From Henricia sp. BOLD:AAB3569 (Eukaryota; Echinodermata; Asteroidea; Spinulosida; Echinasteridae): DNA of 64,000 nt. Shown one piece after another: positions 829-60,271 of the stretch (positions are counted from its first letter, which is position 1; each line of letters begins with the position of its first letter). The notes beneath the pieces were generated by a model. It ran no database searches, had not been told where the DNA came from, and saw nothing but the letters and a program-made list of their open reading frames with translations. Location: assembly GCA_037783545.1 (NCBI GenBank), contig JBBELK010000009.1, positions 3,720,001-3,784,000 of the forward strand, in the 5' to 3' direction. The position numbers and the translations under genes are program-made.

Positions 829-3800
829 TGGACGTATGACAGCCGTTAAGCAACGTGAAGTTGGAGCAATTACTGAGGACGCAATTGACAAGCTTCACAG
901 GTTGGTTACTTGGAAGTCTTAATGTTTATAAAAATTATCAGTTTATGACCCGAAGGATATATTCACACCAAACCATGGAGGTTTAAATTCTTCACTTTGA
1001 AATGGAGGTTCAGTTTAAAGCTCCAGTCAATACATCATTAGCAGTGACCCGAAAATTTACTTTGTACGTTGACAAGAAAAACCTGATCAAGTGTGTTAAT
1101 AGCAAAGGTAACAAACTTCACATGATTTGTTTCCCGTGTAAAATTGTACCATTGTGGGAGAAATTGCCAACTAAAAGTGTTTTTAAAACAAAATAATCTG
1201 TAGATGATTTTTTTGTTCACCATTTATTCAACACAAACCCTTGCACAGAACTTCAGATTTTTAAAAGTATTACTGCATCTATGTGGCTGAAATTTCTACA
1301 AGATAGTTTATCAACATTATTCTTTAGTTATGTCATGCTGTTCCTGTCTTTGAAAGTTTTCCAATCATGTAATCTGTCTTTAAATAACTGTGAATTTGAC
1401 ATCTACAGTTCCCTGCAAACATGCCCTGTGGCAGATGCCGAGACAGATGACCCCAAGGGGTTAAAAGTCAACCTGATGACCCACCAGCGACAAGCTCTGA
1501 CCTGGCTTGTCTGGAGAGAGCAACAGCATCCTTGTGGGGGAATTCTGGGTAGGTTCCCAAGACTGTCTAAAGTCCTTCTGTTTTAAATTTCAACTGACCA
1601 ATGATTTTTAAGCCAAATTCAAATTTATAAAATTAGATTCATACCGTGCTTTAATAACAGACGGGTAACAAAGATTAAGCAATTTCTATTATATTTCCCG
1701 TCATCAATTTTTTTTATTTTACAAAATCAAGGCCTCTTTATTTGATAACGTCGAGACCTGACATGTACCCTTTTAATTGCAATTGGTACATTTGGGAACT
1801 AGCAAAATTGTCAAAATTAATGCAATAATTCCCAAAATTTCACCATTTTGTTTTTTTTAAACTGGAAAACACTCAATCTGAGCTGCACTATTTTCAACTT
1901 ATACCAAGACATGTCAAACACTAAATGATCATATTATGTGTATTTTGTCCTCATTATTTTTGATAGCGGATGACATGGGCCTTGGCAAGACCTTAACCAT
2001 GATCTCCCTAACACTGCTACAAAAGCAACAGGCTGCTGCTCAGGACAAGCCAGAAGAGGATTCCAAGACTGGAGGTAATGGCCAACAATCCATGTAATCA
2101 TCGTGCATAATGCTTAAAATCAGTTGTTTGTTCATGCACTGCACACTGTTATTCATATTGCGTTGTCCGTCTAAGTTTTATACGCTCTAGGGAGCGAATA
2201 AAACAGATGACGCACAGAACACTACGCACAGAAATTTTGTGCGTGAAATTCACTGCAAAATTCCCTGAAATACGTTCTTTCAAATAGTTTCTAAGGTTTC
2301 CAACGTTTGAATAGAGTGAGACAAGATCCTACTTTGTACGACGTAACAAAAGTGACAGTCTAAACAATGTTATAGACCTTTATCACGGTGCGGCCATCTT
2401 CCCTTTTCCCCTATTAAAATGAACGTAACCAAAGCGAGGCTTGCCGAAATAAAATAGTTTGGCCCCGTGTTGAAAATGTTCATTGTGTGCATCACAATGA
2501 CGTGCGATCAAGAAAACGCAACGCGGACAGTGATTCTCTCAAAACAACAACGGAAGACTGCACGTGCTATCGCGCTGACACGCATACGCATACGCACTGA
2601 TCATGCCTGACATGTACACGTACTATGTAGTGGGGAACGAGACAAAGATGGACGCACCGTGATAAAGGTCTATTGCCCCACCACCATACCAAAGCGGGCC
2701 TCGAATTATGCATTCAGGGGGGCACTGCAATAATTTATCGCTTTTTCAAAAATTTGAAAGGTATCACGGCATGTGTATTTGACTTGTGCGTATTTGACTT
2801 GATAAAGGTCCATAAGAATTATAGTATTAATGAATTGCTGGCCAACAACTCAACACAACCCAAATTTTCTTGTCTGTTTACGTGCAGATCAAAGCTTCAT
2901 CACCTCTCAGGCCACCCTGGTCGTGTGCCCTGCCTCGCTTTTAATGCAATGGCAGCAGGAAGTGGAGCGGCGCTGTGCACCAGGCCGCCTGCGGACCTAC
3001 CTGTACCACGGCGTAAATCGTGAACGGAGTGCCAAGAAACTATCGCAGTACGACATGGTCTTCACAACGTATAACCTCGTCAGTCGAGAGATGGCAGCAC
3101 TGTCGGCACAAGACAAAGGGGACGAGCCAGTGCAGGTAGGTTTTATCAAGGGAATGAAAGTGTAGTTGGTCGGTCTTATAGCCTTTATATAGGATTTGCT
3201 AATTGTATTCAATCATTTGACCAGAAAAAACTTATAAAAACTCAAATGGAAGATAGAATTGGTTCCAACTGTCAATGTAATGATTTTGTCCGAGATAATT
3301 TTTTACAAACAATAATTAAAGATGAATTTATATAAATGAGTGTCCGCACACATTTTTTTACAACAGTGCCCTCATGATGTGAACGAGACTAGTCCCCTGA
3401 CTGCCATGGTATCATGGCTTCATTGTCTGTGAAGTGTAACCATGGAACCAGTCTAAATAAGACGGCAGCTTCAAGCAGCTTCTCGAAAGCATTGACACAG
3501 GTTTTCATTTTCTTGGAATGTACTGAGCTGCTATATTTTGTCTCCTCAGGACCCAAAGGACCTCCCAGCCAGCAGCGAACAGCCTCTACTCCTACGCATT
3601 TGCTGGGAGCGTATCATCCTCGACGAAGCCCACAACATCAAGAACCATAAATGCCAAACTGCCATGGCTGCATGTCGGCTGCGTGCCCGGTCTCGCTGGG
3701 CGGTGACTGGTACGCCAATCCAGAACAACCTAGTGGATATGTACGCACTATTGAGGTAATTTGTTGCAGAAAAACGAAAGTTTGTTGTAGAAAATTGTTA

Positions 3801-6800: not shown

Positions 6801-9800
6801 TACAAACCAAATCTTTAACCGCCAGATCCAAAGTGCAAGATTACATTCGGTTCCACGAGGATAAGGAGAAGGGTCAAGGGTCAGACGCCAGCGGAAGAAT
6901 GCCAGCCTTGCTCACCAGTACAGGCAGAGCCATGCCTGTGGGTGGAGCAGTGGGAGGACCCAGTGGCAAGGACCAGCAACAACCAATGCATGCCAGTCAC
7001 ATCTTGGTTCTGCTGCTTCGACTTAGGCAATGCTGTGGGCATCCTAGTCTTCTGAAAGGGGTAAGACGTCCGTCTCTATTCAGTAATGTTTCATTTTAGT
7101 CTGTGAGCAAAAACTTCGCCCAAATGCCACTTCGCCCGAATGCCACTTCGTACACAGGCTGTGGTTCAGGGCAAAGTAGTTTTGGGGGCGAAGTGACTGG
7201 AAAGCTTTTTTTTAGTTTTCTCAAAAGTTAGATGAAGTACGGAGCTGACTTTTACTCAGGTTGGTTTTAATCATGCATATCTTTAATCACACAGGGATAA
7301 AACTATCTTTAATGAAGATCAATAAAAGATGGGTACTTTTCACTTTAGGCAATTACTAACAAAGATCAAATCTAGCTGTAACATACCATGATTGCCTGGT
7401 CACACATGGGCATGAAGTGTCTGATGCTCTGAGTGGTTTTTGAGTGGCGCATCTATAAATGCTTTGTCGAACGAAGGGAGCGTACACTTTGCAAATTAGC
7501 TTTGTCACATTAAGTCAAATGAACAAATTTTGCTTTATTTGACGGATTCTGACCTTCGTTGTATGAAGAGGCATTCACATCAGGAAATCTCTTCTTTGAA
7601 TCATGCAATTGTTGAATCTTCGTCAAATGGAGCAATATCACAGTTGTTAATTTTGGACCATACTCGGGATTCGTTTTAAAATAAATTCTCTGGTCATACA
7701 GAAACCTTAAAATTATCTGTTTTTTTTATATTTGTTTTGCACTTTTTGCAGGCAGTTGACATGGAGAGCTGTGAATCCGAGGGCATTGACCTTGATCTGA
7801 TTGGCCAGATGAAGGAAATGACCATTGGAGAGGAGGAGGAAGAGGACCAGGAAGGGGCGGGGCTTAGCAGAGGGGATAATCCATCCATATTCAGCAAGTC
7901 CAGTCCAAGTACCAAGGTGGGTCTTTCCACAGTAAAGGAGGCATTTTGGCAACAGAGACCATATTTTCCAGAAAATACCTTTGTCTGGTCTCAAAATAAA
8001 AGAAATTACTTTCAGTTGTTCTGAAGAGATAACTTAGGCGCAAAAAGGGTTACAAATAGTGTGACAACATGCCTTTCTAAAAACCCGTGTGTACAAATTT
8101 CTAAACAATTTTTTTTCTCATTCAAAAATGGCTGCAGCTTTAAAATGTGTAAAGAAATTGTCATATTTACACTATTAAAGTATACAGGGAAAAGTTTTTG
8201 CAAAATTCAAAGTGAACTTTTTTTATGCCTATCCTGACAGTAACGTACTGAACCTCTTTACTTTATTTTGTGTCATGTTTTAGGTTTCTTAATTTGGTGT
8301 TCAACCCTTTATTGCACAAGGCGGTCGCCCGCCCAAACCAAGGGTTAAAGGAGCGAGTCCAGATCACATTTTTGAGCCACCAATTTTTCCCATGGGTGTT
8401 GAGATTTTGATACCATATCATTTGTCATATTTTTCTCATTACCATTCTGAAATTTCACACTCTCAATCTGTATATTTTCAATGATATTGTCAATCCACCA
8501 ATGTTTTGTAGACTAATTTATCCGTTTTATAAAGCAGTGCAGTGATTACACCAACCCTTTTGCTTCCACATCCAAATTGCAGACTGCAAATCTCCTGTTT
8601 TCTTCCCATGGATAGTATTTATATGATTGTTAGGTTTTTTTTTTTAAATTAAAAAAATAAAAAATAAATCAATTTTCTGGAAAAATCTGGTCACGCTACT
8701 TTAACAACTTTCTTTAGATTTGAGTATGTTGACAAATCAACACAATATTTTTCTTCCCTTTTTTGTATCTTGGTCAGATTAAATCTGTAATGTCAGCACT
8801 CCGCGACATCCGCAAAAACAGCAGTACTTCCGACCGTCCCATGAAAAGCGTGATCGTGTCGCAGTGGACCCAGATGCTTGACGTAATGGCAGATCACCTG
8901 ACTGCAGCCGGCTACCGCTATTGGAGCATCCGTGGTGACATCCCGCCCAAGAAACGCGGTGAAGCGTTGGACGACTTCAACAACAACCCACGAGGTTGCA
9001 GAGTCATGTTGGTGTCGCTGCGGGCTGGAGGGGTGGGGTTAAACCTCATAGGAGGAAATCATCTTTTTCTCCTCGATATGCATTGGTAAGGCCTCTCGCA
9101 TAATTTCCCCAAAATTAATCTGCTTAAAAGTACATATTACATGTTCGTAGATCTTTTAAAAACAGGAACAACAGCATTACATAACTAAAGAATAATGTTG
9201 ATAAACTGCCTTGTAGAAATTTCAGCGACATAGATGCAGTAAGATAAATAAATTGTGCATAAATAAATGGTAAAAACATTTCCTGCAGACAATTTAAAAA
9301 AACAAAAAAAGGCCTTCAGTTGGCAATTTCTTCCACAAAGTTTTACAAGAAAAAAATGATATTGTGTTTGTTACCATTGCTATGAACACTTGTCGCAATG
9401 CGAGTGTCACCATTTTGGATCTAGCGCTGTAACACCTCACAAGAAGGATCTCAGATCTTGATCAGGATCTGTGCGAAATGAACAAGTTAACCTCAGATCT
9501 GCGTAGATCTGAATCCGGATCCCTCCAAAACAAACACGACCTATAAAATGGTACATGTATTGTGAATTGCCCGAGACATGTTTGTTTATATTTTTCCACT
9601 CTAGGAATCCAGCATTAGAAGACCAAGCCTGCGACCGTGTCTATCGTGTAGGACAGACCAACGACGTGTCCATACACAAGTTTGTCTGCCAAGACACCAT
9701 TGAGGAGAGAATCTTGGATCTGCAGCAGAACAAGTCCAAACTGGCTGCTGATGTTCTCTCAGGGTAAGTTTGTCAGTACCTTCATACAGTGGCTAGGTCT

Positions 9801-13434: not shown

Positions 13435-14067
13435 TCAGGTTTGGAATGGCGTGACTTGGAACATGTAGCATCCGTTACACACGCGGACGGGACTCAGCTG
13501 ACCATATCGGGGCAGAGGTACAGAGTTGGCTGAACAACGTCCGCAGAAAATCTGAGAGGGGAAAAAATTGCCGTTTTGTAAAATATCTAAGAAAGAATGT
13601 TGGTAAACTAGCCTGAAGAAATTTTAGCTACATAGATGCATCAATGCTTCAGAAAAACCTTGAAAATCTATATATGGATTTTGTATACGAGTGAATGGTA
13701 AAAAAGTGCCATGCACGGGACTTTTTTAGAAACCCACCTTCGGTTGTCAATTTCCAACATGAAATACCATTTTTGACGGAAATAAAATCATGTGGTGTTT
13801 GTTACCATTGCTATCAACACTTTGAGTAAGGTTTTTCTTGTCAACTCATGAAAAACAGAATTGGGTCATTGCAAATGATACAATGGGCCTTTAAAGCATG
13901 CAGTGTGTGCAGTTTAAAACCTTTTACCCACACCTTTATCTACTTATCAAAGCCTACATGTACCTTTCCACAATTCCTGCAGTGGTGTTTTCTTCTCAGC
14001 ATGGTGAATGTAGCTTTACATGAGGTACACTCTGTGGCACTCTCATCAGGAACCCACGGTGGTGGCT
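13435..14067 (-). CDS. ZFYVE28: LST2 exons 11-12: FYVE zinc finger
   Basis: Exon 11 (14067-13964) gives [20 protein letters not shown] and the basic [10 protein letters not shown] patch. Exon 12 (13551-13435) gives [26 protein letters not shown] and ends PFQT-stop. All zinc-ligand cysteines and the basic phosphoinositide-binding patch are present. Intron between them is phase 0 after GGA AAG and holds one family D element. Confidence 0.95.
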
Positions 14068-17000
14068 CTGTTACAAACAAAAAATAAAACATTCTATGTT
14101 TATTTGCCTTCTTCATCATTTTGGTGCCAACATGACTGGTAGAAGAATAAAGGTGCGGGTAGATGTGTAGTTCAGAAGGTTTCAGGCCGCTCTGCCATGG
14201 CATCCTAAATAATGGCTCAGGACATGTCATTAGTAGATCTATGCTAAAAGGGTGGTGTTTTTTTTCTTAATTTCAATTTAATGAACTTCAATTCGCAGCT
14301 TGTAGGCTTAATTGCATGAAGCTTACACGTGTGTTCCATCTAAATATAAAGATACATAGATGGGTGGCGCCATTGGCAGCCGACAGCCAGAGACACCGGG
14401 GAATCCCGTTCCTCTTCACAAAAGAGTGCTCTAGGATCTTTTAAGTGCGTTACACAACACACTGGACCAACGGCTTTACATCCCTTCCGAAGGATGGCAC
14501 AAGTGTGTTTAAGTGCCTTGCTCAAGGGCACAGAAACCACGGCTGGGTATCAAATCTGCAACATCAAGTTTTCACCCATTGCGAGTCAATGACCCAAACC
14601 ACTCGGCCACGGTACCCCACAGGTTAAACCTAAGAACAGTATACCAGGGAATGGATCATGTACACCCACCTTGGTTAGAACCGGATCTTCTATTCCTGGA
14701 ACCACTACGATGCCGTTTTCTTTCCTTCGGTTCCACTCCCGGACTTTCCCCCTCCGCTACACCTTCAAAAACCGATGAATCGCTCGGCGATATTCTACTA
14801 TTAACATCACTTGAATTGATTCTAGTCCTGGTATTACGCGCAGACACGTAACTGTATGCAGCGTTCCTAGTCTGTTTTGGTGAATCAATTAAGCTCTCCG
14901 TTTCTGGATGACTGTTGAGGTCGTTTAAGGGTCCTATTTCGCCACCAACGGCACCTTCTGAATGTGCGTCGGCGTCGAATCGAACTCTCCCATTTGTCGG
15001 CGACGCATTTGATTCCGGTGAACCACCGACGCCATTGTTTCTAGAAGCTACCGTGTTGGGAGTTGCAGCGCTAGTACTTGGGCCACCGTTGAAGGGTTCG
15101 TCTGGAGAACTGCCATTTTGTTTGCTTGGATCGTCGGGCGTGGAGATGAATGGTTCCGCAGCGCACATGATGAATACGGTCTTGAGGATGTTTCTTAAAT
15201 CACTGGCGTAGTTTGTTTGGAGCTGATCTGCAACACCTTTACAATGGGACACAAAGGATACATGCGTGTTAGATTTCAAGGCATGATATACCACATTAAG
15301 ATCCGAATGGTACATGTAGGAAACTTGAAAACAAGTTTAAAATCAAACAACTTGAATTTGTGAAACATTACAAGCCCACAAATCTCTAAAATATACTTCT
15401 CAATTTCTGGAATTTAGTGACCTACAATATCCATACTGGATTTTCAATCTGGGACCAATTTCATAGAGATGCTTAAGCATGAAACCCCTTGCTTAATAAA
15501 ATGAGGTTACCAGCAACAATTTCATGTGATTGACATGGTAATGAAACAGTCCTCTAACACTGGTCATACACTAGTAACGTTCCCTACAAAGCAAGACTTT
15601 TTTGTGCTTATAAGCAAATATGAAATTGGACCTCAAGGTCTGCTTTTAAGGTTGTCTCTATAAAGCATACCAGCAATGCAGACAAATAGACGATGCACCA
15701 GATCACTAGAACTTCTAAAGTGAGATCTCATCTCCTGCCGAGCAGCCATCTCGGCTGCTTCAATAGCCATAGCAATCTCCAACTCATCGTTGTTTTCAGA
15801 CAGGTACGATGTGCTGTCGCTATCACTGTGGAGAAACAACATAATGGACACTCAAAACAATAGATGAGTTGTGACGCTTCTCAGTGGATTTTTAAACTGC
15901 ACTGCAATGTCTTAAAAAATGTTGGAAAAGCCATTTTTACGAATGCTTCAAAATGGCACACTTTGGCTTCTGTTTTTAAGACACAACCTACATACCTTCT
16001 GCATCAGTCTTGGATACTGGTATGTCCACGAGGCAAAACAAGAGATTGTTGTGGTGCTCTGGCAAGATGCCCAGATAGCGTGGTTGGTAGAGAAATTGGC
16101 CATGTAAGCCAAGGACCTGGGTTCGAATCCCAGTCGGGGCACTGCAATTTTCTTGTGTTTCTAAATTCATCTTTCAACACACATTTATATAAATTTATCA
16201 TTTTCTTTAAAATGTAATGCAGAATCATTGCATTGGACAGTCAGAACCACTTTTTTACTGAGTAAAGTTCTTCCGGTCAAATGGTTCATAACAAAAATTG
16301 GGACATCGCAAATCGTGTAGTTGGGTTTTATGCTGTATTAAAGAAACCAACCTTCCATCCGACTCCCACCGATAACTGCAGATGTCATCGTCCCCTTCAC
16401 AACAAGACGACGAACACGAACTCGATAAACTCCCATCGTCGTCATTGCACTTGGTATAATCGCGCGCCCCAGGGATGGGCATGCGTCTCACCCCGCGACT
16501 GCCTTCAACCCTATTGATTGCACTGGCTGGGATGGCACCATTTGGACTGGACGCGCGAGACGATTCCTGGTCCGAACCACGGTGGCCGGAGCCGTGACGA
16601 ATCCGTTGAAAGAACGACGTTGGTTCGGTCGGTTCACTAGGCGACGGCTCGTCTATTGAACTCTGATTTGATGTTCTGTGCGAAGGGGACGCAGGCCCTT
16701 CGTTAGTAAAATCCAAGTGGTTTCTGTTATTCACAGTGGGGCTTGTTCTCGCACCGACGAGGCTTAGTTCCGTACTGGGTTTCCCTTTGCCGAAACGAGA
16801 AAACTTGGGGGCGAATTCGCTACCGGTGGGTGACGTAACTGGTGGGCGATCGTGGCCGTTTGTATTAATGGAACAATTTCTTTTTTCCTGTAGTTGTCCG
16901 TCTATTCTCAACGGGCTGGGGTTAGTTTTACTAGAGTGTGGAGCCGAAACGTTGCGTTGGACTCGCACCAAACCAGTACCATCGTGGAGTTCGATTTCCA

Positions 17001-20000
17001 CGCTGCTGGGCAGCATTGGTTGGACATTGATGAACAGATCCATAGATTCAAGCTCCGGGGCCGAACCCAAACCACTGTCTTCTCGCGTCAAGCGAGGGGC
17101 ACGGCTCCTTCGCTGAAGTGGCTCCAAACTGTCAGTTTCAATTTCCCTTGCCGCCAAATTACCGTCATTGTTTGAAGTTCGAAGCCCAAAAAAGTTATTA
17201 TTTGCCACATCACAATTCTGTTGTCCATCAGGATTTTCGGGCAGGTGATCTTCCAAAGATGCCTCATTTTTGTCAGTCTCAGCCCCACTATTTTTGTCAT
17301 CTTTGGACTCTGACGAAGTACAGGCTGCGGAAATCCCTGGTACAACAATGTCTATCCCAGACGCTTCTCCGTCTCCCGACTCCAAATCCCGCGCCATAAG
17401 CTCATGGTTCGACTCAGAGAAGCTCAACCGCTGCATGAGCAGATCGGCGCCCTCTGGAGTCGACATGAAGCTGGAGCTGATCATAGAACATTCCGTCAAC
17501 ATGCTGTCGCACGGCGACAGGCAGATGGAGTCGGGGTTGCGACTCGTGCGCCTAGAGCGCCCTCGCGGCGGTATTTCGTTGTTCAGGCTCATTTCATTCA
17601 GTTGGCGCTCGATGACATCCCAGGAGTCTTTGGTGCTGCAAAGAGCCTTCTCTAAAAGGTGAAGTTCCTCTTCATGTAGAGTTTCTAGCAATTCCCTTTA
17701 AAAAAATTAAGAAAATGTTTAAAGATGATAATAATTATGATAATATGGACTTATACCCCTATCTAGGCACCTACACCAGCATTACAGGGCTCCATTAAAA
17801 CACTCCGTATACCCTCTCAGCTCCCTCGAGAGTATACAGCCTCGGCTGCCTCTCAGGCACTCAATGGCTAATTAAACACATTCGCCACCCTCTCAGGTAC
17901 CCATTTTACTCCTGGGTGGAGAGAAGCAATGCGTGGCAAAGTACCTTGCTCAAGGGTACTGAGGGAGTATACCAACTGTGCCTTATAGCTTAGCTGGTAG
18001 AGCATCTGCCCGGTGAGTCAGATGTCTCGGGTTGGAATCCCGATAAGGCCATTTTTCTCTTATCCCAAGTTTGGTTGTTTCATTTCAATGGTGACCAGGT
18101 ACCATACCAAATGTTGCGTTCTAAAACAAATGGACAATCACGCTCACCTGATTTTACGCAGTAAACCGTGAAACGGTCGAAAGAGCTCAGAAATGTCCCG
18201 TGGGTCTCTGTCCATATTCAATGGACCTTCAGGGAAAACTAACAAGCCACTGAAATTCAGATGAAAAAAAAGACAATAACCGGTCGACACCAGGATTATT
18301 TGGCCAAAAACCCAAAATTTTTAAAAAGGCAAATGTGATTGGGCAAAAATTAAGACCAGGTCAAGCACCTCAAAAAGTATTTTCTACATTAAGTTGCATG
18401 AATCTTCCACCAAAAGATCCACGGGTTGAAAATAACACTGGTCTGCAGTCCGAGACCAGTAAAAATTCAGAAGGACCACTAGATCTGTCAAAGATGCTGG
18501 TCCAATGGACAGCGAAAACATTTACTGACTCATGGAAACATCTCTGATGCCTAATCCACGGTATACATTTCTTACTCAATGCGAAGAATTCCTGGTTACC
18601 ACAAACAATTCCTGATCGCTTTAGACATTTCAGATAACTACATGTCTTTCTCTGATCTCTCCAGACATGCCCCAGTGTTGGATCAAAAAGCAATCCCATC
18701 CGTAGCAGTATCACGGTGCCATTTTGAAAAGCAAGTGGACCACCAAATTTTAAGCAGGACCAGTAGAGTTCTCTAATCTACTGGTCCTTCTGACCAGCAA
18801 GGTTAATTTCGACCCCTGAGATCATACTTTGCAACTCTGAGTCAACCGCCCTTGTGACTATACATTGCAAGAACGTGTTTACACGTCCTCCAGCATGAAG
18901 CGGTCAAGGAGCAAGTTCAATGACAAGGCAAGTGCTGTAGCTGAGCACCCTCAATAGTCACGATATTCTTAACATCAAGTCGTACATACCTGACAATTGC
19001 TAGCCTTGGGATAGTGAACATGAGCGCAGGATCATAGTCGTCAACTCTTTCCTGCGTAATGTAACACTGTTTTAGTGCTCTGTAACAAAACCAAATTGGA
19101 ATACATATTGAGAATGCACCAAGGTAACCTAGACAAGTGGACAAGGTTAATACAGAATAGATTCTTTGCATCAGCAGCCATGTTAGGCTCTATTGTTCTA
19201 TTACTCACCTGTCCACAGTCTCACAGAAGAGAACAATAACATCCTGCTGAGTGTCAAACTCGCGAGCAGTCTTGACTGGCACCATGGCACTCACGTAGCT
19301 TAGCTCAAACTCGGCAAACATCTCGTCAAATTTTATCAGACCTTCCTTCACCTGTGACAAATAAGTTTTCAAAAAAGTTGTAGCTAGTTGTTAAAGACGG
19401 ATTACATGAATTTAAAAAAAAAAATTTCTAGGGACAAATTTTTAAAGCATTTACTTTATTTTCTGTCTCTGGAAGACTTTCCGAGACAGAGGAAACAGAA
19501 GAAAACAAATTGGACAGGCCACCGGTCCGGGGGATGCACTGTGCATTGCAGACCGAGCACAGGAGGTCAGACTTGGGCAAGTCTATGCTTGAATTATTGG
19601 CAGACAGCCAATAATTTGAAATTGACAGTAATTGTTTGATGACTAAACGTTGGTCGATTTTTTTTTCGTTGATGTCTCATTTGAAAGCGAATAACTTTTA
19701 TGTTTCCAGAAAATTCTAAATTAAAAAATATATATATTTTTCGAGGTGCCACACCCAAAACTCAGACTGTATATCTTTAAAGCTTCCAGATAATTGTTTA
19801 CAGCTAGAAACATATGAGTAAAATATACAGTCAAACCTTGATAATAAGAGCACTTTTAAAGGCACAGGCTCGTCAGCAATGCGCGCGCGCCAAATTCGTG
19901 CCACGAAATACGCAGCTCCATAGCAAAGGCATGGAACTGCGTATTTCATGGCACGAATTTGGCGCGCGCGCGCATTGCTGACGAGCCTGTGCCTTTAATA

Positions 20001-23000
20001 CAACATTCTGCTTATACTGTAACATGGAAATGTTTCTGTACAAATTTATTGTTCGTTCCTGATAATACACATTCCTGATAACTAATAATAAAGGTAATCT
20101 GCAAAGTCCCGAAGACCTTGTATTAACAATGTTTAAACAAATGAATTAACATTTTATGAGCATTTTATATGGACGGACAGAAATTGGTACTGGCTCGCAT
20201 TTGCTTCACAGCTCGCCAAAAAACAAAAATAAAACCCACCAGTGCCAAGTTTTGGACCTACTGAAAGTTGTCAAAGGAAATGAATCAGTCGCATGAATGA
20301 CGCTGGATGTTATTCATGTCTGGAAAAGTGTTGGCTACATGAAGGTCCACCAACTAGAAATCATTAGATATTACATTGTGTAACTTGGCACACTGTCAAC
20401 TTGCGACATCCTGTGGTGCAATTATACCCAGCACAATGTGACAAGGGGACTCCCCCTAATGCCCCTATACCTCAACACACTCTTCCCTTTTGTTACAGCA
20501 CTGCTCTTGCAAGATACTGCGTAGTACGTCTAGGCTTTGCGTCAACCAGTGGACGCAGCGCGGCACTCTTTATTGCAATCCACCCTAGGACCAAATGGTC
20601 ACAAGATGGTTCTTGACAAAGCTTTCTGTTGCTAGTCATAACATACCTTGCTGCTGTAATGGTTGAGATCCTTATAGCACTGCTCTCTCAAGATACTGCG
20701 TAGTACGTCTAGGCTTTGCGTCAACCAGTGGACGCAGCGCGGTAGTCTTTATTGCAATCTACCCTAGGACCAAATGGTCACAAGATGGTTCTTGACAAAG
20801 CTTTCTGTTGCTAGTCATAACATACCTTGCTGCTGTAATGGTTGAGATCCTTATAGCACTGCTCTCTCAGGATACTGCGTAGTACGTCTAGGCTTCGTGT
20901 CAACCCTCGAGCTAGAGGACGCAGTGCGGCACTCTCAATCTCGCGATTCATGATTGTCGACCCTGCAGCTAAGCACTGTCAAAGTAAACCAGTGTGAACA
21001 TGGGATCGTCCATTAAATTGGGTCACATTTTGTGACATATCTCAAAAACTACACTCTGTCCTATAGACCGTATCAAATAGCTGCCATCTTGTAGGGCAGT
21101 TTCTTTGTTCCTTGAGGACATGCATGGTTGCACATTTTTTGCTTACATTGTTACCAATGTAAAGGACAAAAGTTTCCCTACAAGATGGCAGCTACTCGAT
21201 ACGGTCTATTCCAGCCCAGTTACTTTGGTCAATATGCATTTCAGAAAGAGAAGCATATCCAATTTGCATTATACGGTAGTACAACAAACGTCTTGAAAGT
21301 GTTAAACATGTGGTGTCTATGTAGCATACATAAATCGTAACTGGTGAGAGATTGCCCAATGAAAACATGAATGAATATATAGCAGCGCATTATACCATTT
21401 GCGTACATAACAGTAAACTCGATATAAAACTCTATGATACACATGTAAAGCTGCTCTTTCTAAGTCCCAGCTGTATGCACTGGCTATTGACCCCTTTCGA
21501 ACACGTGCGAATATGCCATTTTGGGAGTCAAATAATGCTGAGTCATTGTGGAAGCGATGTGCGTGCGCGTTGTGTGTCTCTCTGGTGGGCGCAACACGGT
21601 TTAGTTCACCAATGGGAGCCTCAGCATAGCGCGTTACTCGCGCTATGGACACACACAACGCGCACGCACATTGCTTCCACAACGACGCGGCATTGTTTTA
21701 CTCCCAAAATGACGTCATTGGCACGAGCTCAATACAGGCATCAATAAAAAAAATGTGAGTTTAAGAGAAAAACAAGTTTACCTCTGCACCAAACCACAGC
21801 TGGCCCGCAAGGCTTTCCTGCAGGACATCATCAGGAAACTTTGCCCTGAAATCCCTGTTTGCTCTCTCATTGTCTATAGCATGTTCCATGACTTGCTCCA
21901 CAATAGCTGCAAAGGAAAAACACACAGACTCAATGACAAACAGATAACTTGCTTATAAACATACAAGTTTTTATAAACATTGTGTATTTAGATGGATTGA
22001 TTCCAGATTCATGTTCCAATTCAAAATCTCAAGCGTCTAGGAGCAAGGCCTAAATCAGGTCTCTAGTCAAACTAAAAAATATCCTGAAAAACATACCGGT
22101 ATACATGTACTGTACCCGGTATGGTAAAAATACAATGTTTACATTTAACATTCTGCTTTAATTTATCATATTGAATACCTGTCATCTTGTAGGACAGTTT
22201 ATTCCTTGAGAACATGCATGGTTGCATATTTTGTGCTTACAAGATGGTCTGGACTTTACAAGAGGCCTATAGACCGTACCGAATAGCTGCCATTTCAAGG
22301 GGCACCTTTTGTTACTTAAACCGTTCAACAATGGAAGCACAATATGTGCAACCATGCATGTTCTCAAGGAACAAAGAAACTGCCCCACGAAATGGCGGCT
22401 ATTTGATACGGTCTATATAGTAGATTGCGATCTCAAATAACAATCAATAGGTACAATGTAATCTTGAAATCAATACAAAAATTTCAGCATTCCGTTACCT
22501 TGTCAGATGCTTTTAAAGGTTCAGTTATATAGGCATTGTCTCATTAACATATTTTCTGAATATATTCTTCTGACAACCCTCTACCTGTACATGTAGGAGG
22601 GGTCCTCAGAGGGGTTCTCGGGAGTGTTCTAGACTACATGTACTTAGATCCAGGCATATTTCTGCTACTAACCCAGCACTTTGTCCTGACATGCTCGTAG
22701 TTGGTTGACCAGCAGTGTGCATCTCTCTGGGTCTTGTCTGCCATCAAAGCTGTCCAGTTCCTGGGAGACTGCATTCAGCTCCTCGTCGCTAAAGTAGAAC
22801 TGTGCTAGGAGTTGACTGTCTGTTTTCTGGAAAAACAAATATTTTCAATGTTTTCATACATGTATTATCAAATGGCAATTAGTTTTTTGCGTGTAACTTT
22901 TGCCTAATGGCTGGTGCCCCGAAATCTTTACTTTCAAATGGAGGTGTAGTTTAGAAAGCCACATACATGTGAGTCTTTCCACGGTAAAGGGGGCATTTTA

Positions 23001-31752: not shown

Positions 31753-33394
31753 TCCAGTGCCATGAACTGTGCGTTTTGTGTTGATAAGCTGTTAGATTAT
31801 GTTGTCACTTCGAACAATTTTGTACGTTTATTGTAAGCTTGCGAAGCCTGTAAACGTGAGGGTGCGCGTTGTGCACTGTTCTATTAAACAACACAGAACA
31901 CCCAGTTCATGGCCCCCAGTAATGGCGGACGTGCAGGGAAAGAGTCCTTAGCAACCGGATTCGTCTGTATACAGTGTCCCAAAATCTTAAACCATTTGAC
32001 TGGAAAGACCTCATTCAAATGAAAGATAGACAGTGGTTCCAACTGTCTAATGCAATAACCTCACCCTTTATAAGAAAACAATGAAGATTTTCAAAGGGCG
32101 CCCTCATGTGAACGAAACTAGGCCCCTGACTACCACAGTAATATGGCGGTTTTGCTTGTAGTACAGCCAGGAAACCAATCTAAATACAACGGTAGGTTCG
32201 CACAATTTCTTGAAAATGAAAGCATGGACACAGCTTTTCATTGTTTTCTCGCAGTGTATATGAGGTACTGAGCTGACTTATACACAGGTTGGTTTTTATC
32301 ATACACATCCTCAATCACACATGGAGATTTATAGTTTGTAACAGTTTTCTAATCCTGTAATCTATTTTTAATGTGAGCTCGTCAATTGTCACATCCACTC
32401 TGTCACTGTACAGTTCAAAGGCTCGATGTGATGATATAACTCCAAGAATCAGTTGGCCTCTGCACTCAGTCCAAATGGCCGTTTCTTGCCATGACTGCAC
32501 AAAAGAACGCCGTTGCACTGTTAAAAATAAACTGAAGATAATACAGATGTACAACCGTGAGAACCTTTGCAGAATCATTGATGACGTCTAGAACAAACCT
32601 TAGTGAGTTGTTTTTTTTCTTCAGTTATCGAGTTGACACGTTGAGCAAATTCACACAAATTCCTGCCATGTTTCTCTATCTTCGTTCAAACCACATGGTA
32701 CAGAGCATACTCCCTGTCTGACGGGGAGCAGTGAGAGCAAACTTTCACTGACCCGAGTGTCATTATTCTCGTTGTTTGCACGCGCAGGAGTCTGCCCAAA
32801 TGCACACAACCATTGAGTCCAACCAGTACTTGATCAGCTATCACGAAATGTCCGACATGTCCATGTCAATATGGTGCTCTGTAGCATTTGAGTTCTGTTT
32901 GCTCTGTTCCCACTTTCGAGCTGCCAAACAAGCATAGGAGAAAAATAGTTAAAATGTAAGGTTTTCTTCAAATTTTCATCAAAAGTTTGTTTTGGAACAC
33001 AAATATATGGCAGAACAATAGAGTACTAAAGTGAAAACGTCACCCTTTGTGTTGCCATGGCTACTGGGTCTACACAAAAACCAGTTAACTGTTTCACTGT
33101 GCTTAAGTTATAAATGTTTCAGATTTAAATACCAATGTTTAGACCCAGTCTAATGTTTAGAATGTTCTAAAATGTTTAGACCCTGGTAACCGACATCACA
33201 CTTAATACTTTAGTAATCTATTATAAATGTTAATTAGGGTTTGCCCTTACCCTGACGTATATTAGCACTGTATACTCAGTGCTTTCCTGAGACACTACGA
33301 AAAACTTCATAGCATGCTCGGGTGGGATTTGAACCCACGATCTCCTAATATCTCCTAAAATCTCCTGGCTGAGTAATCTAGCGCATCAAACATC

Positions 33395-33645
33395 ACAGGT
33401 TTACCCCCAGAAGTTAGCTGGGTTCCAAACAAGTTGTTAGTTTCCATCCATGGCATGGAGTGACTAGGAGCATTTCTACTCCCCCTGGATGGGATGCCAG
33501 TCCATCACAGGCTTACCCCCAGCAGTTAGTTGGTTTACCCAACAGGTTGTTAGTTTCCATGGCATGGAGTGACCAGGAGCATTGCTACTCCCCCTGGATG
33601 GGATGCCAGTCCATCACAGGTTTACCCCCAGCAGTTAGTTAGGTT
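33395..33645. repeat. About 112-bp tandem repeat, 2.3 units
   Basis: Units run from CACAGGTTTACCCCCAG to CTGGATGGGATGCCAGTCC. Two full units and the start of a third. A tRNA-like B box (GGGTTCAAATCCCACC on the minus strand, about 33324-33342) lies just to the left, so this may be a SINE with an amplified tail. Confidence 0.8.
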
Positions 33646-33958
33646 TCCCGTGTGACGTCTATTGGGAAGTGTGACGTGTGAAGTGTGACGTGGGTTGCCA
33701 TGCAAACTATCATGGCCGTCGGAAAAAGTACCATTGCAAAAGCACAGGGACACGGTTCAGTGATTTTTAGTTTAGAGCCAATTGCCTAGGCAACCAACAA
33801 AAGATGACGTATTCACTTCGACAGTCTATAAGTAGACCCTTTGCACCCGGAGCCATGGCAGGGGTCAAGTTTTCATATTTAAATGATGTGACAACAGATG
33901 TACAAAGAGCCTAATGATTCCCATTTTAATAGACGTCTGTTATTTTTCGACAACTGAG

Positions 33959-40450: not shown

Positions 40451-40842
40451 TTAAAGGAGCGTGTCCAGATCACATTTTGAAACCCGCCCCCCTCCCCCAC
40501 CCCCACCCCACAATTTTTTTCCCATGGCTGTTGAGACTTTAATACCATATCATTTGTTGCATTTTTTCATTACCATTCTGAAATTTCATGTTCTCATCAA
40601 TCTGTATCTTTTCAAGGATATCGTCCCAAAACCAAATTTTTTTGTTAACCAATTTATCTGGTTTCATAAAGTAGTGCAGTAATACATCAACCTTTTTGCT
40701 TCTAGCCCTCCACATCCAAATTGGAGATTGCAAATTTCCTGTTTTCTTCCCATGGATAGTATTTTTGGGGAGTTATTTTACATAATTCTTAGGTTAAAAA
40801 CAAAATTCCATTTTCTGCAAAAATCTGAACACGTTCCTTTAA
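40451..40842 (+). mobile_element. Family A element, full copy
   Basis: TTAAAGGAGCGTGTCCAGAT to ATCTGAACACGTTCCTTTAA, 392 bp with an expanded C-rich tract near 40487-40511. Confidence 0.88.
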
Positions 40843-43868: not shown

Positions 43869-44396
43869 AAGCCTAGCGTACATTGACCTTACAACTGGAA
43901 GCAACTCAACTGATCAGTTGTTGTCGATGTGTGCGTAGCACGCACATCGACAACTGATTTATTAGTTGCGCAACTAGCGGCAACTGGGAGCATCCAGCCA
44001 TGTCTACATTTCCAGAGCGCGCACATCGACACGGCAACTCGGTAAAGCCTATAGTACATGTACATTGACCTTGAAACTGGAAGCAACTGTTGCTTGCAGT
44101 TGCTGTCGATGTGCGCGCACGTGATCAGATGCACGCGTGCAACTGACAGCAACTAGTTGCAAGTACGTGTACATTGATGCAAAGGACCGCAACTGGGTAC
44201 AACTAGTTGCCAGAAAGTAGAACATGAGCAACTCGCGGCAACTGGGATTTTTCCAGTTGCCAGTAGTTGCAAGTACGTGTACCTTTTTAAGCAACTGATC
44301 AGTTGCTCCCAGTTGCCGCGAGTTGCTTCTAGTTGCCGGAAACATCAGTTGCCACTATAGTTGCTTCCAGTTGCAAGGTCGATGTACGCTAGGCTT
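43869..44396. mobile_element. CAACTG/CAGTTG-rich foldback element, family J, copy 2 with doubled left end
   Basis: Left end AAGCCTAGCGTACATTGACC and right end GGTCGATGTACGCTAGGCTT are inverse. A second left end begins at 44043 (AAAGCCTATAGTACATG). About eleven CAACTG/CAGTTG hexamers lie between 44070 and 44375. Non-coding. Confidence 0.8.
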
Positions 44397-50700: not shown

Positions 50701-53700
50701 TGAGTGAAGTTTCATAATTTTGGCAAAGAAATACTGCACATATTGGAGATCTGGAACTAATATTAGCCTTGTATGACAAAACACAGGGGGGGAAATATCA
50801 TTAGTATTTCATAGAAATTTCAAGAAAAAAATAATGATTTTCTGAACAGACCGGCGCAACATCTGCATGTAAACGCCAAAGAAAACATTTACTTCATACA
50901 TGTTCATATCTTGCCCAGCAAACAAGTTTGTCCGACAAATCCAATACTGGTTTGACGTAAAATACGCACGCACATGTACGATCACGTTTCGCGGGCACAG
51001 GTTGGACTTTGCTGTACAATCAATCAAATTGTTCCAAGTGGCAACTCAATATTTGGTAAAATTGAGAGATAAGAATGCATGCGCTTCCACTGTGAGGCGT
51101 CGTTGATTATATCCTAGTCAAATATTCTGTAGCCAATACTTGTGCAGTAGTTTTAATTAAAGTGATTTGTATTACATGTACATGTTTGTGTTGCCACTTT
51201 AGTGTAAAGACGTACACTTATTTGGTTAAGTACACAGTATGTGTATACCGGTCCATTCAAATAGTAGAATCGGTGTGAAGAGTTAATGACTTGGACTCCA
51301 GACACACTTGAGTCACAAATTCTAGGACTTGAGACTTTACTTGAACTTAACTGAAAATGACTTGAAACTTGACTTTGAAAAACCTGAAGAGGGTCTTCAC
51401 ATGCAAAAATATGAGGGTCTTTGTATCCAATTTTGATGTTGAAGTAAACCAGGGCTACGGGTCTAGTTTAGGCATTAAATTATAAAATGTTCACACTTTT
51501 CTTATATCCTTGGCATGGATAGTACATTGGGGAGATATTTGATACTATTGTTAAGTTAAATCAAAATCCATATTCCTGAAACAATCTGAACATCTCCTTT
51601 AATACTGGGCACCGCAGTCAGGAAATTATAATTGCACCATGTAATACCGCTGCCATACGGTATGGGTCCTTTTTAATTTGCTGATTGTAGACAGAGCTCG
51701 GCATTCGAATTTGCCAACATTGCACGTACATGAACTTATATGCGGGATGGAACTAAAATGTGGTTGGTGAAAATTAGGGTCTTCTCAGAAAATGAGAGCA
51801 GTCCATCCTGAACAAATATATCTCCACAAATTCAATGAAATTAATATTTTCTTGCAAGACAAAAATCCAGATTGCCCACATTGCTAGTTAGATGTCCACA
51901 CATTAAAATATATCTTTGTGTATATTGTGTGTTTACTTTAATTTTATACACATCTGGTACATCATCATAGTGCATACGGTATGGTACATGTAGTACATGT
52001 ACGCGCAACATGTACACAACTACACATTATAGATATTGTACATGTACTGGTGCATCCCATCTGCATTTTATCTGAAACATACATATGTAATCAAGATTTG
52101 CAGATAAGTTTTTATGAGATACAGATAATTAATCGGGTTTATGTGCATAAGTCCAATGCATGTGGAAATGTCACATGCACCTGGTGAATAATGAGATTCG
52201 GCTTCAGTACACCCGCCCCCCATGGCAAATCAATACAGGAATATTAATTCCCATCTCCCTGTGGCTACAAGTTGGAGGATTCAATCACTACATGTGTCTG
52301 CACAGTAATGAACACAATAGACCAATTTGGTATGGTGCCTAATTACTATGGAAATGAAGAGGAAAAAAAACTTGGGATGAGAGAAAAATCGTAAGGGTTC
52401 AAACCCGAGACATCTGACTCACCGGGCAGATGCTCTACCAGCTGAGCTATAAGGCACAGTGGTATAGACCTTTATCACAGTGCGGCCATCTTCCCTTTTC
52501 CCCTATTAAAATGAACGTAACCAAAGCGAGGCTTGCCGAAATAAAATAGTTTGGCCCCTTGTTAAAAATGTTCATTGTGTGCATCACAATGATGACATGT
52601 GCGCGGTGCGATCAAGAAAACGCGCAGCGCGGACAGTGATTCTCTCAAAACAACAACGGAAGACAGCTATCGCGCAAACGTACACGCACTGGTCATGCCC
52701 GACACGTACATGTAATATGCAGTGTGGAACAAGACAAAGATGGACGCACCGTGATAAAGGTCTATACTCCTTCAGGTTTTCCCTATGAACCCATGGGAGT
52801 GCAACTAAGCAAAATAAAGAGTGCAGTATGGAGCCTAATCACCATAAAGTAGCAATAGACCCTTTGCACTGGCGGCCATGACAGGGGCAGTATACATTGT
52901 CATCATGCATTGTGCATGAGCAGACACTTTGTGGATCTACCGGTATTGTCACATCATTTAAATATGAAAACATGCCCCCTGAAATGACCGTCGGTGAGTT
53001 AGCATTGAACTGCTGAAAGATTCGCAGAAATGGTTCAAGGGAAGTATTGCATGTTCTCAAAATCGTTGTAGATATTTTGGCATGTGAAACTTGCCGGTGG
53101 GTAGAAATTCTCAACACGCGTCGAGAATGTACATGTGTAGGCTTGGGCTATAGCCTGTCTGAAGCTGATTGGAATTGATTCCAAGTCAGGAATCAGAATC
53201 ATAATTCCATCTTTTGGAGGAATCAGTACCTGGCGTTTCTGAATGTTAATGGCTGCATAAATTACAACAGTCTCGGAATATGAAGTTAGGAATTATTGTG
53301 TCGGTCCAAGCGATGTTAAATGGATGTAATTTGCCCATACAAGAGGCAGATGGTGTATGGGCAAATTAAATCCATTTAACATTCTCGAAATAATTTTGCA
53401 GTTTTATCAGGTTTGCGAAATATTTTTCCAATTTTAGCACCAACTTTTGTTTTGAAAATGGAATTAAATCTGAATGGAATTGCAATTCCCAAGTTGGGTA
53501 CCGTGGCCGAGTAGTTTGAGTAACTGGCTCGCAACACTCGGGTGAAAATTTGGGATTGCGGGTTCGATACCCAGCCGTGGTATCTGTGCCCTTGAGCAAG
53601 GCACTTAAACACACTTGTCCATCCCTCGGAAGGGATGTAAAGCCATTGGTCCAGTGTGTTGTGTAACACACTTAAAAGATGTGTGCTATATAAATGGAAT

Positions 53701-56700
53701 TAATATGGGCTTTGCACAAGCCTAGCGTTCTAGTGCATTATGATAGCAAAATCCCTGAGGATGGCCAAACTTGCACTGACGACAACATCACAGATACAAA
53801 ACATCAGCTTCTTAAAGAACCACCTAATACTAGAGGAAATCAAAGCAACAACACAAGCCTTCTAGCAGACCTTGTTCCTCCTCCTCCTCATTGGCCGCTG
53901 CCCCGCCCATCGCCGCTTGCATCTCGGCTGGTGTCTTCTTCTTTCTTGAGATTCGACCGGCATCACCTGTGTCCTCCTCCTTTTCGGCGGTTATTTTCTT
54001 CTTTAACCCGTACTTTAAGAGAGAAATTAAAAACCCATATAAATTTCAATATATTATCGGTCATTCCACAAAGTCGAGAAACAAAGTTTCCCCCAATTTC
54101 AACAAACAATTTTTTTGGGGCTGTGGTCTACCAAAAATATCATCGGTCTGGTAAAATGTTTGAGTCACTAGCCTTGTGGTCTGGTAGATTTGTACTCAAG
54201 ATTCAGAGCATGATAAAGCTACATTTAAAGGAGTTTAGATTTTTCATATAAAATACCTCCCAAAAATACTATCCATGGGGAAAAACCAGAAAATTTGCAA
54301 TTTGGATGCGGAAGCAAAAAGGTTGGTGTAATCACTGCACTGCTTTATGAAACCGATAAATTAGTTTACAAAATATCGGTGGTTTACACATCCTTAAAAA
54401 TATGCAGATTGAGAGTGCAAAATTTTAGAATAGTAATGAGAAAAATATTTAAACAACGCTGGATGCCGCAATAGGGCGACATTTCGGGAAGACTCTCACC
54501 GGAGACCACCGAAATTTCGGCAAGAGTCACTCAAAATGACACCTTATTTTTTTACCCAAAGCTTCCAGAGATGCTTCCAGACCGAAGAGAAACAGCTCCA
54601 CTACCAATAAAAATGGTTCTCGACCTAAAAAAAAAGGTTTTTGACCTAAAAAAATGATTTTTAAACTCAAAAATATTAGGGCGACACCAAAATGTCGCCC
54701 TATTGAGCAGGTCGCCCTAATATAGCTTTTTTACACACGATTTGTCGCCCTATCCTACAATTCATAGTTTTTTGACAAATGATACGGTATTAACCCTTTG
54801 CATACCGCATTGTTTATTGGCACATGTTTATTGTGTACCACATTTTGATATTTTATTTTATTTTAACATGCAGATTCATTTATTGATCGCCGTACTTATA
54901 GTCTGTCGCTGTAATTGATAGCATTATGGGAGAGCCACCAGATTTCAAAATTACTTGTTGTTTTGTTTGCTTGTAGTGTACTTTGTCACGTTTGTTGTTC
55001 TCCTGAGAAATAATAAATGAAATGAAATGAAATGTATGGGCAAATGTGTGGAAACATGAGGTCAGTGGTCGAGTAAACTCAACATTGGTAAGGAAGCATA
55101 ATGTGTTGTGTGGTCGAGTATTAGTAAGCAAAGGGTTAAAATCTCAACACCCATGGGAAAAAGGGGGCTCAAAAATGTGATCTGAAAACACTCCTTTATT
55201 GTCACTTTTCTCATATCCTTTGTCTTTCTACTTCCCGTTCAACCTCCAATTTCTCACGTCTCAGTTTGCATTCATTCTCCTGTTCTTGTCGCAACTCCTT
55301 CATATCAAAACTAACTTATCACACCACTGCACCATAAAGCTACATTTAACGTACCTTTTCTCGTATCCTTTGCCTCTCAACCTCCCGTTCAGCCTCCATT
55401 TTATCGTGTCTCTGTTTGCGTTCATTCTCTTGCTCCTGCCGTTGCTCCTCCATGAGCTGCGCTTGTTCTGCTTCTTCTTCCGTCATCTCTTTACCACCGA
55501 TGCTGCTGAGCTCGCCTGACAAGGAACAAATGCAATATTAGTGACTGTTCACAAACAAGCCGTAAACTGCAAACTTAATTTTGTGCTACAGAGCCAAATA
55601 ACGTGAGGTTATACATGTAATAAGGTATAAACATCGTTTATGTGAAATATGGTGATTGTAGCTTTTTGGGAAAAAATATTTTAAATATTTTTAAGGCTTA
55701 ATTTTGGTACCTCATCTATGCTTTGAGAAAACAATTACAAAGCTTTTGCAAAGCTGCCATTCTATATACATGTAGGCTGGCTCCCTGGCTATATAAGGGC
55801 GTTGTAAAAAAAATGCATGTGCATACGCATTTATATGAATTCATCTTTAGTTATCATTTTTCTGAAAAAATATTATCTTGGGCGGCATCATTGCATTAGA
55901 CAATTGGAACCACTTTTATCTTCCATTTTAGTAAGGTTTTTCCAGTCAAATTTAAGACACTGCGAATCTTGCATATTGGCTTTAAATATTACTGGCATCC
56001 TGTACTGTATTTGGCAAAGAGAAGGCATTTTATATCATAAAAATGTAATTTGCCTGACTTTTTTTACAGTAACAAAGGCAAGATGCTTTGGGGATACCAA
56101 GCCAAAACTTAAATCAATGCTTAAATACTGCAATATTGACAGGAAAAACATTGCTTCTGCCAACAGATGGCATGCAGCGATCGAAGTACTGTGAGCTACA
56201 TTGTTTCAATGGCATGCATGTGTAGTGATTAATTCAAATGAGATGCGAGATGTCTCCTAACGTGCCATGTAGGCTACCCAAGTAATTAATGAAGGACGAT
56301 GTGCATACATAAGGTGAAGACATATGGCATACTGTACACAGCAGTTTTGACATGTTTCAAGGGGTTGTAATTTACAATGTACATGATACACACAGGTAGT
56401 AGTGAGCATAAAAAATATGCGGGTGTGTACGCGGGTTCCTAAGGGTATAGCCACGACTGCCTAGAATGTAAATTTATGCCCAAATTGTATGCATGCAATT
56501 ATTTTAACCGTATGTGCATTTAACAGTCTGCAGTACGTGTGTATGTGGGTCTGTCCACAGTAATGGAGTACATTTCTGTAACATTCAAGATCTTAGGTCC
56601 CAGTTCACTTCAAATGTCTTAATTTTATCTTTAAATTATCAAGCTAAACTGAGAAAATAACTTTTTCACCTATGAGTAAGAAAAATAGTCCTACAACATA

Positions 56701-59700: not shown

Positions 59701-60271
59701 AAATTGAAGATTTTTTTATTTTTCTCATCTTTCTGAATTTTCATGCTCTCATATCCGTATATTTCCAAGGATATCGTCAAAAATCTACCGAAGTTTAATT
59801 TATCCGGTTACATAAAGCAGTACAGTGATTATACCAACCTTTTTGCTTCCACATCAAAATTGGGTGATTACAGAATTCCTGTTTTCTTCACATGGATAGT
59901 ATTTTGGGGAGGTATTTTTTATGATTGTTAGGTTAGAACGAAATCCATTTTCTGGAAAAATCTGGCCACGCTCCTTTAAGAAGCAACATTTCCTGATTGC
60001 GATTCAAACCCTAAATTTCTATATGGCACAAATGTCCCATGTGACATGTGTGTGACTTGCTTATGGAGTAGTGAAGCCGTTTTGACAGTTTTATCGTCAA
60101 AGAAAAAACTTAAATACAAAAAACGACCCAGTGGAGAATTATACCAATTTCAAGCGAATAAAGTAGCATGAATGGAACAAATGCAGCAAAATACACATTC
60201 ATATTTTAAAGTTTACCTTTGACACTATCCAGCTTGTCGCCCATCGCCATCTTTAACACCATGCCCGCCAT
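44674..60271 (-). CDS. CPLX: Complexin, complete, four coding exons
   Basis: Complexins clamp and activate synaptic SNARE complexes in regulated exocytosis. Minus-strand exons: 60271-60217, 55515-55355, 54012-53871, 44744-44674 join in frame to 142 aa. Residues 1-19: MAGMVLKMAMGDKLDSVKG, an N-terminal segment. Residues 20-50 form the acidic accessory helix (MTEEEAEQAQLMEEQRQEQE). Residues 51-76 form the central SNARE-binding helix, with KMEAEREVERQRIREKYG almost as in vertebrates. Arg51, Arg62, Lys72 and Tyr73 match rat complexin-1 Arg48, Arg59, Lys69 and Tyr70; the Tyr52 equivalent is His55. A Lys-rich/acidic tail (SRKKKTPAEMQAAMGG, then poly-Glu) follows. The last exon adds the amphipathic end GLVDTVMNFFTPLTEKISGF with no CAAX box. 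The donor of exon 3 (GTCTGC) is weak, but the codon split G|GT fits exactly. Which paralogue is unclear; invertebrates usually have one. Confidence 0.92.
45931..46880. mobile_element. Composite element with nested family E insertion
   Basis: The outer element begins AAAGGCCCACTGTATCAT and ends with the inverse-like AATGATACAATGAACATTT; relatives start at 4738, 34380 and 42203. It is interrupted by E at 46071-46468. Confidence 0.65.
46071..46468. mobile_element. 398-bp TIR element, family E, flanked by TA
   Basis: TIRs TGGGTTTGTCCATTAAGTTG / CAACTTCATGGACAAACCCA. TA lies on both sides. Internal arms CACGTAGCATCGGTA / TACCGACGCTACGTG. Confidence 0.85.
46981..47413. mobile_element. TIR element related to N
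   Basis: GTAATTAGGGGTCCAAAA / TTTTGGACCCCTATTTTTGG, then AATTAC. Non-coding. Confidence 0.65.
48045..48476. mobile_element. 432-bp foldback element O
   Basis: AATAAGGCATATCTGATGAG against TTCAATAGATATGCCTAATT. The interior has repeated TTTACCGG and inverted arms around 48090-48440. Confidence 0.65.
49311..49516 (-). repeat. tRNA-headed SINE, type beta, copy 2 (decayed)
   Basis: Shares GGTGGGTGGCGCCATTGGCA, CCAGAGACACC and TTGTTCAAGGGCACAG with copy 1. The tRNA-like head is badly eroded. Confidence 0.7.
52320..52462 (-). repeat. tRNA-headed SINE, type alpha, copy 2
   Basis: Minus-strand head GCCTTATAGCTCAGCTGG ... CGGGTTTGAACCC, then the tail shared with 18052-18115. A family C element follows at the TATA next to the head (52463-52766). 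Confidence 0.75.
52463..52766. mobile_element. 303-bp TIR element, family C, copy 2, with TA duplication
   Basis: TATAGACCTTTATCACAGT to ACCGTGATAAAGGTCTATA. It splits the SINE-alpha flank: GGCACAGTGGTA on one side and TACTCC on the other. The intact counterpart at 17960-17985 reads through without the insert. Confidence 0.9.
53497..53705 (+). repeat. tRNA-headed SINE, type beta, copy 3
   Basis: GGTACCGTGGCCGAGTAG, then GCGGGTTCGATACCC (B box), GCCGTGGT closing the head, core CCTTGAGCAAGGCACTTAA, and an A/T tail near 53690. Confidence 0.8.
54225..55198 (-). mobile_element. Family A element with two further insertions inside
   Basis: Outer parts 54225-54449, a fragment at 54773-54789, and 55140-55198 are collinear with the reverse of 8345-8704. 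Insert 1 is 54450-54772 (GTCGCCCTA-rich). Insert 2 is 54794-55135, flanked by TTAA. It is in complexin intron 2. Confidence 0.85.
54794..55135. mobile_element. 342-bp piggyBac-like non-autonomous element
   Basis: CCCTTTGCATAC at the left and GTAAGCAAAGGG at the right form an 11-of-12 TIR starting with CCC. TTAA lies at 54790-54793 and 55136-55139. TTAA target duplication is the piggyBac hallmark. Non-coding. Confidence 0.85.
55202..55306 (-). pseudogene. Decayed duplicate of complexin exon 2
   Basis: Reads KELRQEQENECKLRREKLEV, then EREVERQRI and a stop (CGA changed to TGA), in the same frame as the SNARE-binding helix of the real exon (55515-55355). It lacks the exon's acidic 5' part, and its donor has lost a G. 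It therefore cannot serve as a working alternative exon. Confidence 0.85.
56545..56996. mobile_element. 452-bp foldback, diverged relative of family H
   Basis: TIRs GTGGGTCTGTCCACAGTAAT / ATTACTGTGGACAGACCCAC. Central arms CAAATTTTCCTATTACGCAT / ATGCGTAATAGGAAAATTTG. Confidence 0.85.
57211..57393. mobile_element. Family G element, truncated
   Basis: GGGGACAATTTCATAAAGC, then GTTAGCAGTCAAAATCGTATG and its partial inverse. The right terminus is lost. Confidence 0.7.
59720..59979 (+). mobile_element. Family A element, 5' truncated
   Basis: CAAGGATATCGTCAAAAATC, CATGGATAGTATTTTGGGG, ending CACGCTCCTTTAA. Confidence 0.75.

Follow-up and report, generated by a model that had tools for sequence, protein, structure and literature searches.

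The window (the whole 64-kb stretch of DNA analysed here) holds a complexin gene on its minus strand, with three coding exons that have GT/AG borders and join into an open frame of 132 amino acids. Exon 1 (60217-60271, minus strand), located by local tblastn and by the joined translation, reads MAGMVLKMAMGDKLDSVK plus one nucleotide and ends at the donor G|GTAAAC. Exon 2 (55355-55515, minus strand; 161 nt) encodes the accessory and the central (SNARE-binding) helix, and is entered in phase 1 at the acceptor CAG|GCGA and left in phase 0 at the donor AAAAG|GTACGT. Exon 3 (53830-54012, minus strand) encodes the C-terminal part up to a TAG stop; it was found by tblastn, and its splice sites were placed by reading of the sequence. 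The gene model, splice sites included, is a prediction. Exons 2 and 3 together match the Pfam family Synaphin (PF05835) at 67.2 bits, with a cut-off of 27 (E=2.4e-18), and five PDB chains, all of complexin or synaphin, the best of which is squid synaphin (3.2e-11). A pattern search for complexin in prokaryotic genome contigs yielded 130 pattern stretches, none of them confirmed.

The C-terminus of the protein, as read from 53830-54012 (minus strand), ends ...EQGLLEGLCCCFDFL; close to its end stand three adjacent cysteines, and a CAAX box is absent. The cysteine stretch might be a lipidation site; alternatively, an AAG|GTCTGC donor situated there might be joined to a different last exon (no second last exon was found beyond this donor). 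The alternative splicing of complexin that is described in the available parts of two reports concerns the C-terminus (PMC5445133, PMC10312600).

Other features of the window are mentioned for orientation. Its gene content leaves no doubt that the DNA comes from an animal. Exons with an SNF2-related domain and Helicase_C (2806-3162 and 8733-9086, both plus strand) likely belong to one SNF2-type gene. A FYVE zinc finger exon lies at 13943-14266 (minus strand; Pfam 1.4e-13), and a 480-residue open stretch at 16258-17697 (minus strand), which has no Pfam match, may be part of the same gene. Rfam tRNA matches are seen at 16069-16141 and 17979-18051 (both plus strand), the first of which is the only one also reported by ARAGORN, as tRNA-Thr (tgt). 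An 82-bp match at 95% between 53600-53680 (plus strand) and 14436-14517 (minus strand) marks a SINE-like repeat, the 5' part of which looks tRNA-like by eye.

Intron 2 of the complexin gene is 1342 bp long and contains a partial and decayed copy of exon 2 (55205-55303, minus strand). The copy corresponds to the last 99 nt of the exon (55355-55453), is displaced from them by 150 bp downstream, and is identical to them at 79 of 99 sites in a gapless alignment. The local alignment score is 98, whereas 3000 mononucleotide shuffles reached at most 33, so that chance, which the initial annotation of this DNA had named as the reading that would undo its proposal, does not explain the likeness. That annotation had placed a broken exon copy at 55202-55306, which is off by no more than a few bases, and had taken the exon to be duplicated. 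The copy is real and on the same strand, but only 99 of the 161 nt are present, and the first 62 nt and the splice acceptor are absent. The likeness begins sharply at an ATG within exon 2, 62 nt past the acceptor, and continues through the end of the exon; the direct repeat that spans exon and copy measures 109 nt (78%, offset 150). The copy is separated from the real donor by 51 nt of intron sequence, in which frames 0 and 2 each contain a stop. Beyond-chance likeness to a neighbouring exon on the same strand, together with the inclusion of intron sequence, characterizes the copy as the relic of a tandem exon duplication.

Reading of the copy is interrupted by a single in-frame TGA near its end (the stop had been correctly noted at the outset), and the 30-residue peptide that precedes it matches no family in a Pfam search. 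The donor is lost as well: AAAAG|GTACGT at the real exon is replaced by AAAAGTGACAA, and the donor position reads AAAAGTGACA. Moreover, the copy has C aligned opposite the SNARE-binding residue R48 of complexin-1, in the numbering of the complexin-1 sequence used in the alignment. According to the portion of PMC4927292 available, R48A is among the four changes of the 4M mutant, in which the central helix fails to bind the ternary SNARE complex. Read-through from the real donor to that of the copy would preserve the frame, since the 150 nt gained are divisible by three, but a TAA lies two codons beyond the real donor (GTA CGT TAA), within the TTAA that is common to both copies. In comparison with a mutually exclusive exon, the copy lacks an acceptor of its own and completeness, as well as an open frame and a donor. 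The proposal that the duplication might at one time have supplied mutually exclusive SNARE-binding helices is not supported: without the 62 nt and the acceptor, and with 51 nt of stop-containing intron directly upstream, the copy cannot have replaced the exon as it stands. We conclude that in its present extent it would have been unable to act as an alternative exon, although a 5' part may conceivably have been lost.

The likeness extends into the intron. The 16-mer ATAAAGCTACATTTAA that adjoins the real exon in intron 2 (55334-55349, plus strand) recurs at 54213-54228 (plus strand), where it ends in the left TTAA of a transposable element, here called A, and is now 967 bp from the exon copy. 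In the whole window the 16-mer occurs at these two places on the plus strand and nowhere on the other strand. (The recurrence at 54213 of sequence near 55333, split from the copy at TTAA by A, had been pointed out in the initial annotation, and is borne out by alignment and window search.) A chance match is made much less likely by the position of the second 16-mer, which adjoins the exon copy across a TTAA element. The extended likeness covers 21 nt at 90% (E=0.009 in a window-wide search), and because it stops there the far breakpoint of the duplicated unit is not seen. The 30 nt beyond the 16-mer repeat show no likeness above that of shuffled letters (P=0.40), and their assignment to the duplication is unsupported. 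That the 16-mer is a piece of A is ruled out, since it occurs only beside this copy of A and beside the real exon. The presence of intron sequence at both sites implies that the copy was made from DNA and not from spliced message, and the repetition of part of exon 2 with its donor and adjoining intron implies tandem duplication of one DNA piece.

Element A (54229-55195, plus strand) starts with AGGAG at 54229, directly after TTAA (54225-54228), and ends with CTCCT at 55195, directly before TTAT (55196-55199), which is the right-hand TTAA with one mutation. The combination of TTAA and the motif AGGRR defines T2-MITEs, which are held to be non-autonomous Kolobok elements, in the part of PMC6004289 available. 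A has both (a TTAA target site with one side mutated, and AGGAG at both ends), and is classed here by motif and family comparison as a Kolobok/T2-MITE-like MITE; it differs from that superfamily, as represented in the same part of the paper, in that no transposase or relative in a known family was identified here. The family recognized in the initial annotation is real: blastn finds it at six other places in the 64-kb window, five of them substantial and one short. The AGGAG or AGGAA end directly abuts TTAA at four of the six; one has an extra A, and one has no recognisable end. A search of viral contigs with the family A pattern gave no match.

Two inserts lie inside A, and both are missing from its sibling copies. 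One is rich in GGGCGAC/GTCGCCC and has inverted repeats (54450-54771, ends approximate); it has no clear target-site duplication, and blastn finds no second such insert within the 64-kb window. The other is 342 bp long (54794-55135), has the terminal inverted repeat CCCTTTGC, is flanked on both sides by TTAA (54790-54793 and 55136-55139), and is likewise without a second copy in the 64-kb window. Its TTAA site is empty in the sibling copy of A near 40540. TTAA duplication and CC[C/T]T inverted ends are given as hallmarks of piggyBac-like MITEs in the portion of PMC2872659 at hand, and the 342-bp element, having a TTAA duplication and inverted ends of this type, is classed as one. With the coral CMITEs of that source it shares TTAA flanks and CCCTTT... 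inverted ends; it differs in length (342 bp as against about 100 bp), in being represented by one copy in the window, and in that no transposase is seen. The interruption of A by a GTCGCCC-rich insert and a 342-bp TTAA element had thus been described correctly. Its "three layers" of insertion, on the other hand, come down to two levels: the inner inserts lie side by side in A and are not nested in each other. Since they are neighbours, their order relative to one another is not readable.

The history that we consider very probable is that of a short tandem duplication which began inside the exon and never comprised a complete one, and which decayed, MITEs arriving in the intron later. The apparent unit of duplication would have been about 150 bp, made up of the donor of exon 2, the 99 nt of exon before it and some tens of bases of the intron after it. 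With a break inside the exon, the copy would never have had the first 62 nt or the acceptor, and point mutation would then have introduced the stop and destroyed the donor. The Kolobok/T2-like MITE would have inserted later, at the TTAA just past the donor of the copy, with the piggyBac-like MITE and the other insert landing within it later still. All of this lies in the 1342-bp intron, and copy and elements are expected to be spliced out. The copy with its extent, stop and lost donor, the target sites and the nesting are seen directly in the sequence; the break within the exon, neutral decay, the precedence of the duplication over the first MITE, and splicing are inferred. What the initial annotation had observed is confirmed in its essentials; what it made of the observation is partly supported.

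The pattern of divergence bears on whether the copy was ever constrained. The 20 differences from the exon fall on codon positions 1, 2 and 3 as 5, 4 and 11, and affect 17 codons, 8 of them silently and 9 with replacement. Six of the nine replacement codons can be judged by eye against squid and mammal complexin, and all six look changed on the side of the copy. There are no indels in the 99 nt. In the direction from real exon to copy, G to A accounts for 7 of the 20 changes and C to T for 5, and G+C content falls from 49% to 41%. Divergence was simulated with the real exon under constraint and the copy neutral, only runs with 19 to 21 differences being retained. The 11 third-position differences of 20 have P=0.07-0.13 in one set of simulations and P=0.13-0.26 in the other; the Nei-Gojobori (NG86) count of 10.5 silent differences, which is generous where a codon has several changes, has P=0.004-0.044; the 8 silent-only codons of 17 have P=0.03-0.10. 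Simulation of a moderately constrained copy (omega 0.3; a model that permits no stop) fits the silent measures better (P 0.31-0.89). A neutral copy would be expected to hold a mean of 0.95-1.00 stops, and one is observed (P=0.74-0.76 for at most one). The silent excess thus speaks weakly against a copy that was dead from birth (P 0.004 to 0.26, depending on statistic and model). AT-biased decay narrows the gap and explains most of the excess (with bias 3 and kappa 4, P rises as far as 0.10-0.26).

This excess and the absence of frameshifts count in favour of a copy that was once a complete, mutually exclusive exon, from which the 5' part and the acceptor were deleted before frame and donor were lost. 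The structure of exon 2 accords with such a past: it is 161 nt long with phases 1 and 0, so that a transcript with both copies would go out of frame, which is often the case for mutually exclusive exons. An enrichment of nervous-system genes among such exons is stated in the part of PMC9741552 available. No trace of the 62 nt or the acceptor is seen, however, and only 51 nt, closed by stops in two frames (0 and 2), separate the real donor from the copy, which itself has the stop, the lost donor and the altered residue opposite R48; most of the silent excess, as just noted, can be put down to AT-biased neutral decay. A once-complete exon is for these reasons very unlikely. It is correspondingly improbable that an ancestor spliced a second complete SNARE-binding helix exon that was constrained for part of its life and lost in this lineage, and a small chance is kept for it because the silent excess is a weak signal against death from birth. 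Were it true, the excess would be the trace of the constrained period.

The short tandem duplication of a partial exon also has to be set against a copy that is at work today, for example as a poison exon or as a decoy donor that lowers complexin. A GT is retained one base off the old donor (AAAAGTGACA), and use of this distal donor would keep the frame while bringing in the TAA two codons past the real donor. The copy has no acceptor of its own, and the donor is without G at +5, which makes a live regulatory role exceedingly improbable. The order of events can be weighed in the same way. Duplication, then A, then the inner inserts is the simplest reading of the sequence, because the TTAA by the real exon is undisturbed and the TTAA by the copy is split. 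The divergence figures agree: 17 of 246 scored sites in A depart from the majority of its family (a figure biased low, since columns lacking a clear majority were dropped), as against 20 of 99 sites between copy and exon (Fisher P=0.0008), while at first and second codon positions only, the comparison of 9/66 with 17/246 is not significant (P=0.085). The initial annotation had held that the order is readable, which is upheld for this sequence as the simplest one, but not for the inner inserts between themselves. Nor is the precedence of the duplication over A strictly proven, since precise excision is possible for piggyBac-type elements at TTAA sites, which usually leave no footprint (PMC2872659, in the portion at hand). 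A might on that account have been in the intron before the duplication and have been excised precisely beside the real exon. This needs an extra event and is less parsimonious, and by divergence A looks younger than the copy; we regard A as the earlier event as very improbable.

Comparison with known duplicated exons places the relic. Like the tandem exon duplications with unannotated or decayed copies treated by Ivanov and Pervouchine (2022; PMC9013439, available in part), it is a homologous same-strand copy in a neighbouring intron; it differs in being limited to the 3' part of the exon and in carrying a stop. Like the mutually exclusive tandem duplicated exons of PMC9741552 (again, in the part available), it is neighbouring homologous sequence in a nervous-system gene; here the second exon is incomplete, without acceptor and frame. 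Among the matches listed, no published description of a duplicated complexin helix exon was found, which is not proof that there is none in print. Knowledge of complexin is unchanged by the relic, which offers a clean small example of how a local duplication can begin within an exon and die, and of how nested TTAA elements then date it. Should relatives carry a second helix exon in complete form, alternative splicing would at one time have involved the part of complexin that is most conserved.

About 10% of animal genes hold tandemly duplicated exons, according to a 2002 study as cited in the part of PMC9013439 available, and the window has further local tandem duplications, with offsets of 109 to 362 bp (362 bp near 23759, 182 bp near 43878). 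A decayed partial copy is therefore to be expected now and then. Tandem repeats are present at 20493-20905 (unit of about 179 bp, 2.3 copies, 96% matches) and at 33391-33648 (unit of about 109 bp, 2.3 copies, 89% matches).
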